From: Leptolyngbya sp. CCY15150
GTDB taxonomy: Bacteria > Cyanobacteriota > Cyanobacteriia > RECH01
Reading direction: 5' to 3'
NCBI RefSeq assembly: GCF_016888135.1
Contig: NZ_JACSWB010000164.1
Coordinates: 62,001-126,000 of the forward strand
Length of the DNA: 64,000 nt
Within the stretch, counting starts at the first letter, position 1; each line of letters opens with the position of its first letter. The notes below the pieces were generated by a model that was not told the DNA's origin, made no database searches, and was given only the letters and a program-made list of their open reading frames with translations. Positions 33,529 through 54,541 of the stretch are shown here, piece after piece. The position numbers were made by a program, and so were the translations under genes.

Positions 33529-34824
33529 TTAGTTTCGACCGCCTCTTCCACCAGGAAAGCCATCGTCCACACCACCTCCCTGACCAGGAAAACCATCGTC
33601 TACGCCTTGTCCTTGACCAGGGAAGTCTCGGTCTGGAAGTTCACCCAGACCTGAATCGGGGTCGGTAGGGCGATCGGGGCGATCGGGACGGTCAGGTCGG
33701 TCGGGACGGTCAGGGCGATCGGGACGATCGGGACGGTCAGGTCGATCGGGACGATCGCTAGGACGTTCTCCTAAACCAGGAGTTCCATCTGGATTACCAC
33801 CGCGAACATCTCGGTCATCGCGATTCATTGGGTCAGAGCGATCGGGTCGATTGGGGCGATTGCCTTGGTTAGAGCGAGCGGGTTGGTTGGGAGTATTAGC
33901 ATTGGGATCATCCGCAGGCCGATCGCGCTGGTCTTGATTCACCTCCCCAGACTCCCGCAAGGTCTCGCGGTTGGTGCGCGTGCTGCGATCGCTGGTTCTA
34001 CGGTTCGATGAAGGCACAACAAAGGGTTGCCGCGCAAAGTCGGGCATGTCTAAATCTGTGGGCATCTCGTCGCCATTACTGGGCGGCAGCAGCACAAACG
34101 TTGGGGTATCGATCGCCCCCTCGGCATCCACGGGCTCGTAGGCATCCAACGCCTCTTGCATTTCCTGTTGAACAAGGGCGATCGCTTCATCGTTGCTGAC
34201 CGGCTCATCCGTCGGCGAAAATCCCTGCATCAGGGCGCTAGTTTCATGGAATAGATCGAGGTCAAAGGTGTAGACCGCATCGAGGCGATCGCCCACCGCC
34301 ACCGCCATCTGCCCCGCCTCCAGCTCCCACACCTGGGATCCATCGGTGCTGTAGGCCCGAATGCCACTATTGGTCAGCGCGCCAATGAGGGTGGTGTCAC
34401 TCTCTTCGATGTAGCGCACAAAGAGAGCCGAGCCCTGGATGCCAGCGGCGGCGTTGGGTGTACGAATATAGGTACTGCCCTGTCCGGGGGGAACCAACAG
34501 GAGTACCGTGCCATTGGATAGGGAAAAGTTGCGGGTGCCGGGGGTAAACCAGAAAATTACCTGTTCACCCATGCGGCCTAGGGAGCCGTCATTGAAGCGC
34601 AGTTCGGCCAAGGAGGATTGCCCCGTGGTAAGACCATCGCCAGGGGCCATCGTGTCAGAAATCCGAGCCGCCCGAGAGTTGCCGTCTTGCAAAATAAGCT
34701 GCACTCGGTTTTGTATCGACTCAACCGTAGCGCGGGTGAGAGCCGTTTGAGCAGCCGCAGGACTGGGTATGGCGAGTAGGCTGCAACCTACTGCGACGAG
34801 GAGTGAAATTGGGCGACGAAGCAT
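33529..34824 (-). CDS. Secreted FecR-domain protein with a long Arg-Pro-Asp repeat tail
   Basis: From the ATG at 34824 (MLRRPISLLVAVGCSLLAIPSPAAAQ), with AGGAG 9 bp upstream, this gives a 431-residue exported protein. The FecR domain (about 45-190) shows the TTGQSSLAELRFNDGSLGRMGEQVIFWF and GSTYIRTPNAAAGIQGSALFVRY pattern. In cyanobacteria such proteins occur without a neighbouring anti-sigma system, as here. The second half is disordered: Asn/Arg/Asp-rich, then about ten Asp-Arg-Pro units, and finally a duplicated VDDGFPGQG motif. The repeat tract (33665-33770 in DNA) is prone to expansion. The role is probably in envelope or polysaccharide binding, by inference. Confidence 0.85.
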   Translation of the reverse strand: MLRRPISLLVAVGCSLLAIPSPAAAQTALTRATVESIQNRVQLILQDGNSRAARISDTMAPGDGLTTGQSSLAELRFNDGSLGRMGEQVIFWFTPGTRNFSLSNGTVLLLVPPGQGSTYIRTPNAAAGIQGSALFVRYIEESDTTLIGALTNSGIRAYSTDGSQVWELEAGQMAVAVGDRLDAVYTFDLDLFHETSALMQGFSPTDEPVSNDEAIALVQQEMQEALDAYEPVDAEGAIDTPTFVLLPPSNGDEMPTDLDMPDFARQPFVVPSSNRRTSDRSTRTNRETLRESGEVNQDQRDRPADDPNANTPNQPARSNQGNRPNRPDRSDPMNRDDRDVRGGNPDGTPGLGERPSDRPDRPDRPDRPDRPDRPDRPDRPDRPDRPTDPDSGLGELPDRDFPGQGQGVDDGFPGQGGGVDDGFPGGRGGRN

Positions 34825-35200
34825 AGCTAATCTCCTAGGCACTGAGTATAGGTGAAATCGCGATCGCACCAATGATTCAAGCGGAACATCACTGCATAGG
34901 TAGACATCTTCGGCACCGACTTGAAGTTGTTAAGGATCTAGTGATTGGAGGGACAACACACCGAGAACGATTCCGTTGATGATGGCATCGATCAACATCT
35001 ACATCAGTAAATATCTATGTATGGCCGTTGAGACCACTAGCTTTTATGATGCAAGATTAGCCCTAGTTGTTCCATGGGGTTGTACTCCCAAACACTAGGG
35101 GCGATCGCCCCATACCCCTTCATACAAGTCTTCCTACTCGATTCTAGACATTCCAGACTATGAGCTATCCATTCTGAAATTTTGCTTCTCTAGTTGTAGG

Positions 35201-37430: not shown

Positions 37431-38810
37431 ATGAGTTCGTCTACGATTCGCCCTGCTCGGATTAGCCATGTGTTGCCCGACTCCATCGCTGCTGAGATTG
37501 GGTTTGCACCGGGGGATGCGATCGTATCCATTAACGGTCAAGCGCCGCGAGATTTGATCGATTATCAGTTTCTCTGTGCCGATGAGGTGCTGGAATTGGA
37601 GGTATTGGATGGGAAAGGGCGATCGCACCGGATTGAAATCGAGAAAGACTACGATGATGACCTAGGTCTGGCCTTTGAAACGGCGCTGTTTGATGGATTG
37701 ATCCAGTGCAACAACCGCTGTCCCTTTTGCTTTATTGACCAACAGCCGCCGGGCCTGCGGGATACGCTGTATCTCAAAGATGATGACTACCGCCTCAGCT
37801 TTCTCTACGGCAGCTATCTCACCCTCACGAATCTGGGACAGCGGGAGTGGGATCGGATTGCCCAGATGCGTCTGTCGCCGCTCTATGTCTCGGTTCATGC
37901 CACGGAGCCGGATGTCCGCAGTCGGCTGCTGAAAAATCCCCGTGCTGGTCAGTTGATGGATCAACTACGCTGGTTCCAAGAGCAGCGGCTGCAAATCCAT
38001 GCCCAGGTGGTGGTTTGTCCGGGGATCAATGATGGCGACCATCTGACCCGCACCTTGACCGATCTAGCCTCGTTCCACCAGGGTGACCTGCCCACCGTGA
38101 TTTCCGCAGCCGTGGTGCCCGTAGGCATGACTCGCTTCCGCCCCGATGAGGATGAACTAACGCCGGTGACGCCGGATATCGCTCGCCAGGTGATCGCCCA
38201 AGTGCAGGATCTACAGGCTCAGTTTCAGGATCGCTTGGACTCCACCTTTGCCTGGCTGGCAGACGAATGGTTTTTGATTGGGCAAGCGCCTCTGCCGCCG
38301 GAGTCGCACTATGAAGACTACCCGCAAATTGGCAACGGTGTCGGGTCTATCCGTCTGTTTCTCAAGGAGTTTGACGAGGTGGCGGTTGACCTCCCCGATC
38401 GCCTCCCCAGTCCGCGCACCTTCACCTGGGTGGTGGGTAATGCGGTGGAGACGGCTTTTCAGCCCTTGGTGCAGCGGCTGAACCAGGTTGATGGTCTTAC
38501 GGTCAATCTTGTGGCGATCGCCAGCCGCTATTGGGGACAGGAGATTAGCGTTACGGGGTTAATTACCGGCCAGGATATTCAAGCGGTGTTGCGATCGCAG
38601 CCCCTGGGGGATGGCATTCTTTTGCCCACTCTGATGCTCAAGCATGGCGAAACGCGCTTTCTCGATGACAGTACGGTAGAGGAGCTGGCCCAAGCGCTGA
38701 AGACGCCCATTTGGCTGATTGACGATCTGGATGCCCTGATCGATTGCTGTAGTGGCGCAGAGGGCGATCGCGTCACCTGCATTCGTCCAGAAGCGATCGC
38801 TGTATCCTAA
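37431..38810 (+). CDS. PDZ / radical-SAM-like / DUF512 protein
   Basis: This 459-residue protein belongs to the family named cyanobacterial FeS-containing conserved hypothetical. It has an N-terminal PDZ-like domain (about 8-65, ISHVLPDSIAAEIGFAPGDAIVSING). A Cys cluster follows, CNNRCPFC with Cys93, Cys97 and Cys100, which is the CxxxCxxC spacing of radical-SAM enzymes, then a TIM-barrel-like part. The DUF512 C-terminus follows (WVVGNAVETAFQPLVQRLN). Substrate and reaction are unknown. It is widely conserved in cyanobacteria and in some clostridia. It has its own candidate promoter. Confidence 0.9.
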   Translation: MSSSTIRPARISHVLPDSIAAEIGFAPGDAIVSINGQAPRDLIDYQFLCADEVLELEVLDGKGRSHRIEIEKDYDDDLGLAFETALFDGLIQCNNRCPFCFIDQQPPGLRDTLYLKDDDYRLSFLYGSYLTLTNLGQREWDRIAQMRLSPLYVSVHATEPDVRSRLLKNPRAGQLMDQLRWFQEQRLQIHAQVVVCPGINDGDHLTRTLTDLASFHQGDLPTVISAAVVPVGMTRFRPDEDELTPVTPDIARQVIAQVQDLQAQFQDRLDSTFAWLADEWFLIGQAPLPPESHYEDYPQIGNGVGSIRLFLKEFDEVAVDLPDRLPSPRTFTWVVGNAVETAFQPLVQRLNQVDGLTVNLVAIASRYWGQEISVTGLITGQDIQAVLRSQPLGDGILLPTLMLKHGETRFLDDSTVEELAQALKTPIWLIDDLDALIDCCSGAEGDRVTCIRPEAIAVS

Positions 38811-39103
38811 GGTTCGCTGGGGATGTCTGCTGGGGGCGTTCGTTGCTGTCCCCTAGAAATTTGTGCCAAGGCTGGGTGTTTCTTCAAGAGGTAAGTTATG
38901 GTGTCCATAGAAGGGGGCCTTGAGTCGTTTTAGAGAGATAGGAGAGACTTCATCACTACTCCTTGACATGGATTTGAAACTGAGGTTGATCCCGTCCTGA
39001 TCTGGATGACTGCCTTGGAACTAATGAACGATAGGCATGTAGTTGGATGAAGACAATCGTCTGATTGTCTAGTTGCACCACTCCGCCAGCTCTGGAGATT
39101 TGA

Positions 39104-40966
39104 ATGTTAATTGGTGGGCGATACGACATTATTCGATCGCTGGGTCGAGGCAGTTTTGGTAAAACATTCCTGGCTACCGACACGTTTCGACGCGGTAGCC
39201 CCAAGTGTGTTGTTAAGAAATTTCAGCCCCAATCGACCTTGCCCTCGCTGCTCGGCCATGTGCGTGAGCTGTTTGAACAAGAGGCCCAGCGCCTCTATGA
39301 ACTCAGTACCCACGACCAAATTCCTAGCCTGCTCGATCACTTAGAGCAGAGCGGTGAGTTTTACATTGTTCAAACCCTGATTGATGGCAATGATCTCCGG
39401 CAGTCCTTTGCTCTCGGTAGCCGCTGGGATGAAAAAAGTGTTGTATCCCTGATGCACGAGATTCTGGAGATTCTCGCGGTCGTTCACAGCCACCACATGA
39501 TCCACCAAGACGTGGCTCCCCAGAATCTGATTCGTCGCTGGACGGATAAGCGGCTGGTGCTGATTGGGTTTGGCAGTATGAAGGCGATCCGCAATATGAT
39601 GCTGACGCCCGAGGGAACGCCCTACTTCACTCGTCCTGTGGGCACGTCGGGCTATATGCCCAAGGAGCAAGTTGAAGGACAGCCCCAGGAGGCTAGCGAC
39701 CTCTACGCGGTGGGGATGCTGGGCATTCAAGCTATGACCGGGTATTTGCCCAATCAACTGCCGCGCCATTCTGCCACCCTAGATATTGACTGGTATGACC
39801 AAGCGCCGTTGGTGAGCCCCATGCTGCGGCGGGTGTTGGATAAACTGGTGCGCTACGAGGTGGGCGATCGCTATCAGTCTGTAGCAGAGGTGGTTGCCGA
39901 CCTACCCGATCCGCCGACCCGCCCAGCGCCGCCCATCCAGCCCATTGCGGTGAGTATTGACTTAGACAGTTTGGTGGAAAAGCCGGTGCCGCCACCACCG
40001 CCCAAACGCCGCACGTGGAGTCTGGCGATCGCCCCGCAGTTTGCCTTTGTCCACGATTTTTCGGAAGGGCTAGCGGCGGTGGTCAAAGAAGGGCAACTGG
40101 GCTATGTCGATCCAGCGGGGGCGATCGTCATTCCCCCGCAGTTTGAGTTCAACTGGATCAATAGCCTGCGGGAAGGCGCGTACCAGTTTTCGGAAGGGCT
40201 GGCCCGGGTGGCGGTTGGCCATGCCTGGGGCTATATCAACAAGCTTGGAAAGGTTGTGATTGCGGCCCAGTTTGACGGAGCCGAGAATTTCCATGATGGC
40301 CTAGCGCGGGTGGAACAGAACCACCACTATGGCTATATCAATCCCCAAGGTGAGCCGGTGATTCCGGTGCAGTATGCCAGCGCCGCCCAACGGTTCAGCG
40401 AGTCCTTGGCCCATGTGGAATCGGATCAGCGCCACGGCTACATTAACGCCGCTGGACATTTTGTGATTGCGCCCCAGTTTGACAGTGCCGATCATTTCAA
40501 CGAAGGGCTAGCCCGCATTACCCTCAATCATAAATATGGCTTCATCGACAAGACAGGAGCGATCGTCATCCCCGCCGAGTTTGACGTGGCCCACACCTTC
40601 CGCCAAGGTCTAGCTCGGGTGCGCATTGACGAGCGCTATGGCTATATCAAACCCAATGGCGACCTAGCAATCCCTGCCCAGTTTGACGACACCTTTAGCT
40701 TCACGGAAGGTCTGGCCCTCGTGCGCAACCACGATCGCTACGGGTTTATCGATCCCTCAGGGGCGATCGCTATTCCGCTGCAGTATGAAGACGCCTACCC
40801 CTTTTCTGAAGGCTTAGCTGCGGTCAAGCTAGATCAAAAATGGGGCTATATCAATGCCCAGGGCAAAGTCTTAGTTGAGCCCATCTACGAGGATGCGCGT
40901 TCCTTCCAAGACGGCCTAGCCGCTGTGCAGCAGGATGGTCTATGGGGCTATCTGCGAGAAGACTAG
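39104..40966 (+). CDS. Degenerate protein kinase domain fused to about eight WG repeats
   Basis: Residues 1-270 have a Ser/Thr kinase fold: glycine loop GRGSFGKT at 14-21, a Lys in VVKKF, and the catalytic loop HQDVAPQN at 134-141. The metal-binding DFG is replaced by GFG at 155-157, and HRD reads HQD. Loss of the DFG Asp usually abolishes normal Mg-ATP catalysis, so a pseudokinase is likely. A Pro-rich linker (about 275-310) follows. The rest is about eight WG (KWG) repeats of 34 residues, each with (W/Y)GYI...G...IPxQF...FxEGLAxV. The repeats probably bind a partner or scaffold. No transmembrane segment is visible. Confidence 0.9.
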   Translation: MLIGGRYDIIRSLGRGSFGKTFLATDTFRRGSPKCVVKKFQPQSTLPSLLGHVRELFEQEAQRLYELSTHDQIPSLLDHLEQSGEFYIVQTLIDGNDLRQSFALGSRWDEKSVVSLMHEILEILAVVHSHHMIHQDVAPQNLIRRWTDKRLVLIGFGSMKAIRNMMLTPEGTPYFTRPVGTSGYMPKEQVEGQPQEASDLYAVGMLGIQAMTGYLPNQLPRHSATLDIDWYDQAPLVSPMLRRVLDKLVRYEVGDRYQSVAEVVADLPDPPTRPAPPIQPIAVSIDLDSLVEKPVPPPPPKRRTWSLAIAPQFAFVHDFSEGLAAVVKEGQLGYVDPAGAIVIPPQFEFNWINSLREGAYQFSEGLARVAVGHAWGYINKLGKVVIAAQFDGAENFHDGLARVEQNHHYGYINPQGEPVIPVQYASAAQRFSESLAHVESDQRHGYINAAGHFVIAPQFDSADHFNEGLARITLNHKYGFIDKTGAIVIPAEFDVAHTFRQGLARVRIDERYGYIKPNGDLAIPAQFDDTFSFTEGLALVRNHDRYGFIDPSGAIAIPLQYEDAYPFSEGLAAVKLDQKWGYINAQGKVLVEPIYEDARSFQDGLAAVQQDGLWGYLRED

Positions 40967-41060
40967 AGCCCCATGGGCCATGAGAGGCATGAGGCTGAGC
41001 GCATCAGTGGGAAGACGTAACGATGGGCAGGCGTTGAGTGACGTCAAGCTCCAATTCTCA

Positions 41061-41137
41061 TGAGCAGAGGGCTGGGCGGAGTCACAACTCGGCAGCGTTC
41101 CTTCTGAGCAGAGGGTTGAGCGGAGTCGAAACCCGGC
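41061..41137 (+). repeat. Dispersed intergenic repeat, copies 2 and 3 in tandem
   Basis: TGAGCAGAGGG-led 33-bp units at 41061-41093 and 41105-41137 are arranged 44 bp apart. The second contains GGGTTGAGCGGAGTCGAAAC and matches copy 1 (15102-15129) almost completely. They lie between convergent genes. Confidence 0.75.
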
Positions 41138-41185
41138 CGCTTTCATGCAATAGAGTCCACGACCTAGCATCTCTGGGGATGACGG

Positions 41186-42355
41186 CTACTTGGGCCGAAT
41201 CAGCACCACCGGCGTTTGTTCATCGGCGTTGCCAGCGGGATTGGTAATCAACGCCTGTTCCAACAAGCCTGGTGCAATGCCCGAGGATGCCGCCAAGACC
41301 TTCACCGCCCGCAGATCATTCACATCCACGATCGCTGCTGCCAAACCCGTCTCCGCCTGGATTTGATTGACCACCCGTTGGGGATCTTCAGGGCCTAGGA
41401 CGATGAACTGATCGTAGGGAGGCAGGGTGCCGGTGACGTCATCAATCAGGCGGGCCTGCTCTCCCGCCAGTTGGTAAAACATGCCCGGTCGTTTGAAGAT
41501 TTTTTTGGCGATCGCCCCCACCAAGAACGCAAACACCACCCGCCACGGCCCGGAAATATCCACCAGGGTTTGCATACCGCAGGCGGTGGCTAGGCTGGAG
41601 GTGGGCATGAAGTAGTAGCACAGACGGCGGGCTACCCAGCCAGGCTGCACGGTGGTGGGATGGCGGAAGCGATCTTGCATGATGGCGATCGGGGTTTCAC
41701 CGATGGTGACAATATCGCCAGGCTGGGCATGGGGCATGACGTAGCGCTGCACCACTTCCACTGGATCATCCAAGTGGGTGAGCAAATGGGTTTTCACCGG
41801 CAAAATATCAGCGCGATCGCCCGATCGCCACTGAATAGGCGCATCGGGGCTGGGAAACCGGAGGGGCACAATCACATGGCGGGTCTTCGGCACCCGCCCC
41901 TGGGGGCCATAGGTGACATAGCGCACCTTAATCCAGGCGGCCTGCAGCGCTTCTAGCTGCTCGCCCACCACATCCAGCACCACTTCCATGCGGGTGGTCT
42001 TGCCAATTTTGACAATATAGCCAAACCAATAGCCATCCTCGCGGGCATCGGCATCGGGGTGGCAGGGGGTGATCCGCAGCGTATGCTGAACCGTGTCGAG
42101 ACTGTCCTTCGACAGCAGCGTTGCCGTTGCCGAGACCTCCGGCACCATCAGCTCTAGGCGCTGGGTTTGGTTGACAAACTCCATATCGCCCACAATGCGG
42201 TAATGCTGAGGCTCGTAGACATCTAGATTCCAGGTGCCTGCCCGCAACTGCAGCCGATTGCCCGGTCGCCGTCGATACTGCACCTCAATGGCGATCCATC
42301 CTAAAACCAACAGCAGGGCGATCGCCCCGATCAAAATCCCCAAACTCCCCATCAC
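41186..42355 (-). CDS. CofE-like (F420-0:gamma-glutamyl ligase family) membrane-anchored protein
   Basis: This 389-residue protein begins with a transmembrane helix (GILIGAIALLLVLGWIAIEV). A cyanobacteria-specific domain follows to about 180. The last 190 residues resemble the F420-0:gamma-glutamyl ligase fold (AQPGDIVTIGETPIAIMQDRF, GTLPPYDQFIVLGPEDPQ and AAAIVDVNDL). True F420 chemistry is not expected to need this membrane anchor. The activity in cyanobacteria is unknown, so the annotation is by family only. It is transcribed toward the WG-repeat gene; the cruF promoter lies on its other side. Confidence 0.82.
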   Translation of the reverse strand: MMGSLGILIGAIALLLVLGWIAIEVQYRRRPGNRLQLRAGTWNLDVYEPQHYRIVGDMEFVNQTQRLELMVPEVSATATLLSKDSLDTVQHTLRITPCHPDADAREDGYWFGYIVKIGKTTRMEVVLDVVGEQLEALQAAWIKVRYVTYGPQGRVPKTRHVIVPLRFPSPDAPIQWRSGDRADILPVKTHLLTHLDDPVEVVQRYVMPHAQPGDIVTIGETPIAIMQDRFRHPTTVQPGWVARRLCYYFMPTSSLATACGMQTLVDISGPWRVVFAFLVGAIAKKIFKRPGMFYQLAGEQARLIDDVTGTLPPYDQFIVLGPEDPQRVVNQIQAETGLAAAIVDVNDLRAVKVLAASSGIAPGLLEQALITNPAGNADEQTPVVLIRPK

Positions 42356-52296: not shown

Positions 52297-54243
52297 TTAC
52301 TCGGGATTTACAACGCGTACATCAACACTGTAGCCAGTGTCACTCCCTGCGACCACATCAATCTGAAATAATCCACTGCGGTCGAGCTGTCCTTCCCAAA
52401 ACAGCAGTTCGGCGGCATCTGCGATCAACCGTCCATTGGGGAGGCGAATATCTAACCTCACATCGCCACTGGCTACTTCTGCTTGCAGAATCTGACCAGC
52501 CTCCGCGCGGACTAAATAGCGACGAATCTCGCTAGGGTCGCTACGCCCTTGAATTAAGGTGCCATCAGAACCTGGTTCAAACTGTAGGGGCACGGAAATA
52601 ATCTCGGGCCCGGGTTCCGGCTCCGGCTCGGGTTCTGGCTCGGGTTCCGGTTCTGGCTCGGGTTCTGGCTCGGGTTCTGGCTCGGGCGCTGCCTCCAGAT
52701 CGACCGTGAGGGTATAGTCGCTTTCGACCACACCCCGCACAGGACTCAACTGCACGGTGTAATCCCCTGTGAAGTCCAGTTCTCCCTGCCAGCTCAATAC
52801 GCGCTCTGCCTGATCATCAGCCGGTTGGCGATTGGGCCCGAGAACAGATAGCAACATCCCTTCCTCTGCTACATCAACCGTGAGGGTTTGCCCTTGTTCC
52901 ACTGAAATGATGTAGTTGACGGTTTCATTTTGCTGGAGACTGCCTTCGATGGTTTCGGTTCGACCAGGCCGCAGCGCTAGGCGTTGGCTAAACTCGATCG
53001 GCTCAGTGGGAATGGGCTCGGGCTCGGGCTCCGGCTCGGGTTCCGGCTCTTCTTGGGCAGGAGGTTCGTTGACGACCGGATGCTCCACCGGCGTCAGCAA
53101 GGCTCCGACGATCGCCCAGGATAATGCTCCGATCACGATCGCCGCCGCGACAAAAATCATAAACACCGCAAAGGGATTGTCCCACACCGAGCTTTGTTCT
53201 TCGACCTGAGGGACAATGGGCGGACGGTAGGCGCGATCGGGGGTGCGGGATGGTACGGCCTGGGTGGGCTCGTAGGGACGGCCCACGGCCATGGTCGGCA
53301 TCTGGGATAGATCGGGCGGTGCGGGCGGTGCGGGTGGTGCGGGTGCCGGTGCGGGGGGCGCAGGGCTCGGGTTGGGGCTGGGGGCTGGCTTGGCTCCAGC
53401 TTGGGGAACGTTCGCCTGGAGCGCTTGCACCACATCCCGGACAGACTGGTAGCGATCGCCTGGCCGATAGCTAAGCATGGTGTTGATCACCTGGGCAAAC
53501 CCCGGACTCACATTCACCCAACGCTGCCAAAACCAGGTGAGGGTGCGATCGTCGTAGAGTTCCTGGGGCTCTTTGCCTGTCAGCAGCACCACCACGGTCA
53601 CAGCCAAGGCGTAGAGATCGCTGTTGGGATAGGCTTGACCGCTCTGCATTTGTTCCCCCGGCGCATAGCCTAGCTTGCCCACGGTGGTATATTGCGGCGT
53701 AGTTTCCGGCGACTGGACTCGGGTGGCCAGTTCTTTGACGACCCCAAAATCAATCAACACCGGCAGGGAGTCGCCTTGGCGATGAATGATGTTATCTGGC
53801 GCGATGTCGCGGTGGATGATGCCCTTGCTGTGGATATGGGCGAGCACCGGCAGTAGTTGCCGCATCAGTTGCGTGACTTCTGCTTCGGAGAAGGCCAGCC
53901 CTTGGGTTTGGCGATCGGTGAGCAAGGCCCGATAGGTTTTCCCTTCTACATAGTCCTGCACCAGAAATAGGCGTTGATCTTCCTCAAAGGTCGCCCGAAA
54001 CTGGGGAATTTGGGGATGCTGGATTTGGTACAAGATCGACGCTTCCCGCTGGAAGAGCTCGCGGGATTTGTCCATCATGCCGATGGCACCTTGGAGGGGA
54101 ATAAATTCTTTTAAGGCACAGCGTTCGTTAAACCGCCCCTGATCTTCCGCCAGGTAGGTGCGCCCAAAGCCCCCTTGCCCAAGGATGCTCAACATGCGGT
54201 AGCGATTTTGCAGGATGGTTCCAGGTTGAATAGGTGGTTGCAT
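52297..54243 (-). CDS. Transmembrane Ser/Thr protein kinase with two extracytoplasmic beta domains
   Basis: From the ATG at 54243 (MQPPIQPGTILQNRYRMLSILGQGGFGRTY) this is a 648-residue kinase. The catalytic set is intact: GQGGFG loop, Lys in CALKEF, HRDIAPDNI and IDFGVVKE, with activation segment TTVGKLGYAPGEQ. A Pro/Ala linker leads to one membrane helix (AVFMIFVAAAIVIGALSWAIVGALL). Two beta-sandwich domains of the pre-peptidase C-terminal type follow outside, separated by Glu-Pro repeats. It probably senses an envelope signal. The Pro-Glu tract at 52600-52690 is low-complexity. It contrasts with the degenerate kinase at 39104. Confidence 0.92.
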   Translation of the reverse strand: MQPPIQPGTILQNRYRMLSILGQGGFGRTYLAEDQGRFNERCALKEFIPLQGAIGMMDKSRELFQREASILYQIQHPQIPQFRATFEEDQRLFLVQDYVEGKTYRALLTDRQTQGLAFSEAEVTQLMRQLLPVLAHIHSKGIIHRDIAPDNIIHRQGDSLPVLIDFGVVKELATRVQSPETTPQYTTVGKLGYAPGEQMQSGQAYPNSDLYALAVTVVVLLTGKEPQELYDDRTLTWFWQRWVNVSPGFAQVINTMLSYRPGDRYQSVRDVVQALQANVPQAGAKPAPSPNPSPAPPAPAPAPPAPPAPPDLSQMPTMAVGRPYEPTQAVPSRTPDRAYRPPIVPQVEEQSSVWDNPFAVFMIFVAAAIVIGALSWAIVGALLTPVEHPVVNEPPAQEEPEPEPEPEPEPIPTEPIEFSQRLALRPGRTETIEGSLQQNETVNYIISVEQGQTLTVDVAEEGMLLSVLGPNRQPADDQAERVLSWQGELDFTGDYTVQLSPVRGVVESDYTLTVDLEAAPEPEPEPEPEPEPEPEPEPEPEPEPGPEIISVPLQFEPGSDGTLIQGRSDPSEIRRYLVRAEAGQILQAEVASGDVRLDIRLPNGRLIADAAELLFWEGQLDRSGLFQIDVVAGSDTGYSVDVRVVNPE

Positions 54244-54541
54244 CAGACTTGTGCGCCCTTTGGATTGCCGATGGTGAACAGCCAGGGCGATCGCCCCAGA
54301 CGAGTCATATAACATGTGGATGCTCCCCGATGCTTGCCTAGGAGATAGGTGGCTATTGGTAGGTCTAGCTTAATAGTTGCTTAACCAATAGATGCCTAGA
54401 GTAGGTGCCTAGGGCTGGGCTGCAGGTTGACCCAGCCGATGCTTGGGGGATCCAGATGTTAGACGTTAGTTTAGACGGTGAGATCAGGTGATGATGGAGC
54501 CAGCGAATGGGAAACGATCTGCGATCGCAGGTCAACTTCGA

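Follow-up and report, generated by a model that had tools for sequence, protein, structure and literature searches.

The kinase domain of a protein that joins a Hanks-type kinase to WG repeats has lost the Asp of the DFG motif, and this is a true loss, confined to one genus and under selection, in a rare kinase-WG family. The gene is located at 39104-40966 on the forward strand of the window, i.e., the whole stretch of 64,000 nucleotides analyzed here, which belongs to a cyanobacterial genome of 5.75 Mb in 304 contigs. Judged from its sequence, the likeliest explanation, and a somewhat probable one, is a catalytically impaired, conserved kinase-like adaptor that would have kept its nucleotide pocket; an atypical active kinase is a serious rival.

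The reading frame starts with ATG and encodes 620 aa followed by a stop codon. Its kinase domain (residues 1-268; 39104-39907), delimited by the Pfam Pkinase model and the alignment of orthologues, has both the profile match and the conserved subdomains of the Hanks-type fold, with Pkinase (PF00069) matching residues 7-224 (E = 8e-24; 84.9 bits vs. a cut-off of 31.7). It is followed by a proline-rich linker (residues 269-302; 39908-40009), of which residues 272-300 have pLDDT values below 50 in the structure model, and by the WG part in the C-terminal half (residues 303-620; 40010-40963), where WG_beta_rep (PF14903) reaches 325.6 bits (E = 2e-99) with tandem matches above the cut-off. Pfam finds no further domains besides the kinase and WG models in the 620-aa protein, and no membrane segment is apparent in the domain layout. 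In the full-length model, confidence is low in parts of the kinase lobes.

Alignment with the orthologues indicates that the kinase retains the glycine loop (G14-x-G16-x-x-G19; 39143-39160), the beta-3 Lys38 (39215-39217), the alpha-C Glu60 (39281-39283), His134 and Asp136, the catalytic-loop Asn141 (39524-39526), Glu188 at the APE position, Asp199, and Arg256, all named according to textbook kinase numbering. Two residues are changed: Gly155, encoded by GGG (39566-39568), replaces the DFG Asp to give GFG (39566-39574), and Ala138 (39515-39517) replaces the catalytic-loop Lys. In these respects, the preliminary description, which had reported GFG with a GGG codon and an intact glycine loop, Lys, and catalytic-loop Asp, proved accurate, as did its contrast with a second kinase in the window (ORF 52297-54315), which carries HRD and DFG. 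Residue 138, which the preliminary description did not mention, is Lys in 7/9 full-length orthologues outside the genus; however, Ala138 alone means little, because the canonical second kinase likewise has Ala at this site. HQD (His134-Gln135-Asp136; 39503-39511), which had been counted as part of the lesion, is instead a trait of the whole family, since it is common to 12/13 orthologues, the exception being HLD in L036, and the Arg of HRD is variable in cyanobacterial kinases: in the available part of a survey of 286 such kinases, this Arg, which can be Gln, is 73.8% conserved, compared with 97.2% for the DFG Asp (PMC2176072). The protein therefore lacks the DFG Asp of a canonical active Hanks kinase. 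It falls within the sequence definition of a pseudokinase, which is given in the accessible text as the lack of the beta-3 Lys, the HRD Asp, or the DFG Asp (PMC12599244), at least one of which must be lost; here, only the DFG Asp is.

A full-length orthologue (E up to 1e-100) is present in 12/388 genomes of the class, including the window's own, and a thirteenth, in G272, is truncated by a contig end. The full-length form occurs in 7/36 genomes within one other family; no extra orthologues were found from the window genome's order, the order of G011, or the family of G008. A 95% copy in Leptolyngbya sp. DLM2.Bin15, with length and place as in L032, and a 56% copy in Kaiparowitsia implicata, whose protein is identical to L094, were not counted beside L032 and L094. 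The first codon of the motif is GGG in 3/3 genomes of the window's genus and GAC or GAT in 9/9 full-length orthologues outside it, and the G272 copy reads DFC; thus, the Asp is kept in 10/10 orthologues outside the genus, and GFG is conserved inside the genus only. The rest of the motif is looser, being DFS in two, DVG in one, and DLG in one of the nine full-length outsiders. The preliminary description had proposed asking whether homologues conserve GFG and HQD, and had regarded DFG in all close homologues as a sign of a strain-specific mutation or sequence error. Conservation is found for HQD but, for GFG, only inside the genus (0/10 outside); every orthologue outside the genus does have the Asp, but the change is shared by three genomes and is not a strain-specific error.

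A decaying or mis-sequenced, functionless kinase gene might be suspected from the rarity of the orthologue and from the Asp retained by all 10 relatives outside the genus. On the contrary, the frame is open in three assemblies (with a contig end truncating the G002 copy), and the same GGG, two base changes away from GAC/GAT, recurs in all three, on which grounds sequencing error was rejected. Gene decay was rejected on the basis of dN/dS, calculated by the Nei-Gojobori method for the kinase (residues 1-268) and the WG part (residues 307-597). In the three genus pairs, the kinase domain gives dS values of 0.29, 0.59, and 0.57 and dN/dS values of 0.056, 0.058, and 0.052, which are similar to those of the WG part in the same pairs (0.078, 0.084, and 0.052) and lower than that of the DFG pair L033/L090 (0.099). 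The kinase domain is under strong purifying selection within the genus, which points to a kept protein, and a gene without function is thus very improbable. In a tree of the 12 full-length rows, midpoint-rooted for drawing only, the three GFG rows are set apart from the others by a branch with support of 100/100 and a stem of 0.55 changes per column. Several kinase-lobe sites that are invariant in the nine other orthologues are altered in the genus, as would be expected if the domain first shifted and was strongly constrained thereafter. Consequently, the claim of a pseudokinase stands as regards the sequence definition, with the Asp loss fixed in 3/3 genomes under purifying selection, but not as regards a lesion in HQD or a dead enzyme.

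The kinases of the window's genome comprise 28 rows (from 30 loci out of 31 matches, L012/L017 being one protein counted twice), of which 25 have the DFG Asp and three have Gly, namely the window kinase, L007, and L026. At least one non-canonical residue is present in 8/23 other rows that are complete at five catalytic sites (7/22 without the double; 4 incomplete rows of the 27 were excluded, and misalignment may account for some of the Lys38 changes). Losses of this kind are thus commonplace in the genome, and the view of GFG as exceptional there holds only partly. Altered kinases of this kind are fairly common, and the window kinase may not be fully inactive. L007 (L104:5193-7181, contig C175) is a 662-aa kinase-TPR protein with GFG and HRC for HRD, in which the alpha-C Glu is also changed to Lys and the Asn to His, and is far more degraded than the window kinase; it adjoins grpE, dnaK, and dnaJ (named by eye from translations) and has likely orthologues in G001 and G002. 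L026 (contig C92) is a frame of 1563 aa in which a degraded kinase-like stretch (HRN and GFD) precedes another with HQD and DFN.

The WG part contains nine units, rather than the "about eight" of the preliminary description, a number that applies only to the WG_beta_rep stretches that pass on their own in Pfam. Nine units were found in this gene by the search of the genome with the WG model (G000:C164:102025-102945), and nine WG anchors lie in residues 332-614 at a spacing of 34-35 aa, once 43 aa. Because only kinases were among the best 50 Foldseek matches listed for the full-length model, the WG array was modeled alone (12 rows), with a mean pLDDT of 96.1, a pTM of 0.88, and nearly all beta structure. 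Among the Foldseek matches listed for this model, eIF2A structures score highest when the TM-score is normalized by query length (0.60-0.65); a second fold comparison places at the top a Tetrahymena centriole chain (Z = 17.4), the designed Cake10 (16.1), and eIF2A (15.9 and 15.8), followed by four chains of translation initiation complexes (Z = 15.4-14.9) and then by a drop to 11.8. These four chains are presumably eIF3b propellers, nine-bladed too, as the title of one matched chain partly indicates. eIF2A is reported to be a nine-bladed propeller (PMC4125824) and a designed Cake can be nine-bladed (PMC8458387), Cake10 itself being undescribed in the available part of the latter source. No PDB sequence matched the WG array at E up to 0.1 or at E up to 10. 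The nine units agree with the nine-bladed structural neighbors, and the array is predicted with high confidence to be a nine-bladed beta-propeller; in this prediction it has nine blades, and the eIF2A chains among its closest solved folds are nine-bladed. In the accessible part of a 2021 study, PF14903 was listed as a repeat family that had no known structure, and the model built at that time resembled no solved chain (PMC8078820). In G000:C110, in G000:C174, and in relatives such as G003, G007, and G009, WG arrays are contained in frames of ~320-400 aa without a kinase match among those listed; thus, the array seems to occur alone too. Literature searches that paired WG repeats with cyanobacterial kinases or with pseudokinases, or that looked for bacterial KWG repeat proteins, found nothing, and the matches listed for "WG repeat" alone were nearly all on unrelated subjects.

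Upstream of the kinase-WG gene, on the same strand and at a distance of 293 bases, the profile matches identify a TIGR03279 radical-SAM protein (PDZ, radical SAM, and DUF512; 37431-38810). A TIGR03279 gene is directly upstream on the same strand in 8/13 genomes (the window's, G001, G002, G040, G137, G165, G232, and G272); it is elsewhere and non-adjacent in G026, G219, G179, and G008, and was not found in the short stretch of G011. TIGR03279 is near-universal in the class (334/388 genomes), and its adjacency is thus suggestive, though no proof, of a pathway in common with the kinase-WG protein. Downstream, on the opposite strand, there is a gene with a below-cut-off F420 ligase match, followed by CruF and CruG. 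A promoter and terminator scan of 38500-41300 returned nothing, which has no bearing on co-transcription. Elsewhere in the window, a 447-aa ORF on the reverse strand (33529-34872) contains long RPD tandem repeats near its C-terminus.

A feasible model for the adaptor is that an HQD-type cyanobacterial kinase was fused to a nine-bladed WG propeller in an ancestor, that the DFG Asp and the catalytic-loop Lys would have been lost once, in the ancestor of the genus, and that the altered kinase domain would since have been held by purifying selection. The pocket probably still binds nucleotide, since the glycine loop, Lys38, Glu60, Asp136, and Asn141 are kept, and Mg-dependent phosphotransfer would be strongly reduced. 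The protein would act by binding: the propeller would dock a partner, and the kinase lobe would have a conformational or regulatory role. The radical-SAM protein encoded by the adjacent upstream gene is at most a candidate member of the same pathway, and this link fails in 5/13 genomes. The observed residues, the grouping of the GFG rows, the selection, and the nine units speak for the adaptor, as do the degraded active sites of L092, L093, and L094, in which the alpha-C Glu is replaced by Gly, Gln, and His, respectively, L094 additionally having His for the catalytic-loop Asn; these three orthologues cluster with support of 93/93, below the program's star level. Against it, the kept residues are like those found in atypical kinases that are active, e.g., CASK, and the WG array has no sequence match among solved chains. 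The earlier conclusion that the enzyme is "catalytically dead" is not supported, because the core residues are kept and the GFG kinases CASK and ILK1 are active (PMC2639636, PMC4718504, PMC9403797). By analogy with these two enzymes, GFG would end canonical Mg binding, and transfer would either need no metal (the CASK mode) or use Mn (the ILK1 mode). This alternative is possible, though we consider it clearly less likely than the adaptor. In its favor, the protein retains the glycine loop, beta-3 Lys, alpha-C Glu, HxD Asp, and Asn, which are strongly conserved in the genus; an intact glycine loop and beta-3 Lys are linked to retained activity in the accessible text on CASK, where phosphotransfer proceeds without Mg (PMC2639636, PMC4718504), and ILK1, which pairs GFG with a non-RD HCD, is described as mostly Mn-dependent, with Mn supporting phosphorylation of the majority of its peptide targets (PMC9403797). 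However, Lys138 is missing as well, the losses of other catalytic residues in another clade of the family suggest a weak need for catalysis, and VRK3, which also has GFG, is reported as inactive, although its glycine loop is degraded and it lacks more (PMC2639636).

It is also conceivable, though again rather doubtful, that the function resides in the WG propeller and that the kinase has a regulatory or structural role family-wide, the DFG relatives included, a reading that overlaps with the adaptor and widens it to the whole family. This fits the finding that one or more of Lys38, Glu60, Asp136, Asn141, and Asp155 are missing in 6/12 orthologues, vs. 0/27 non-family kinase matches from other genomes, a control composed of the best hits and hence biased toward canonical kinases. 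On the other hand, Lys38 and Asp136 are invariant in 12/12 orthologues, L033, L090, L034, and L035 look canonical at the five sites, 8/23 other kinase rows of the window's genome likewise have a changed site, and the alpha-C Glu is just 86% conserved in cyanobacterial kinases according to the available part of the survey (PMC2176072). It is tempting to speculate further that the kinase is a nucleotide-sensing or structural lobe for the nine-bladed propeller, with phosphotransfer dispensable, that two lineages have each lost active-site residues on their own (the genus Asp155 and Lys138; the L092-L094 clade Glu60, plus Asn141 in a single member), the remainder being conserved, and that WG repeats are generally propeller blades; we hold this combined proposal as tentative and rather unlikely in full. 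The same architecture with DFG (L033 and L034) and with GFG (the genus) provides a clean natural comparison, by which the role of the DFG Asp is testable inside one family, and the poorly known WG repeat gains a testable fold.

At the readable motifs, the window kinase resembles CASK and ILK1. Like human CASK, it combines GFG with an unaltered glycine loop, beta-3 Lys, and HxD Asp (PMC2639636), which on sequence makes it a putative CASK-like kinase, and its kinase is joined to protein-binding modules (PMC4718504, PMC4042850); by contrast, CASK has HRD and MAGUK modules, whereas the window protein is bacterial and has HQD and a WG array. The plant ILK1-type pseudokinases share GFG, a non-RD loop (HCD), and a clade-fixed change (PMC9403797), but they are of the Raf-like family with HCD instead of HQD, and Mn activity has been measured for ILK1. 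Among cyanobacteria, the Hanks-type cbSTKII (Zhang, 2007) similarly join a kinase to repeats such as WD40 and TPR, although WG is absent from the 14 added domains tabulated in the available part of that survey (PMC2176072). The CP1 bacterial pseudokinases are likewise cyanobacterial, with no transmembrane region and variable losses of catalytic motifs, but in the accessible text all are linked to a COG3899 domain (PMC12599244); membership in this family was rejected, as Pfam finds just the kinase and WG models. Finally, the WG model has the fold of the nine-bladed eIF2A and Cake, to which 292-309 residues align with Z = 15.8-16.1, but their sequence identity to the array, whose unit is 34 residues, is 6-18%, and this common fold shows no function.
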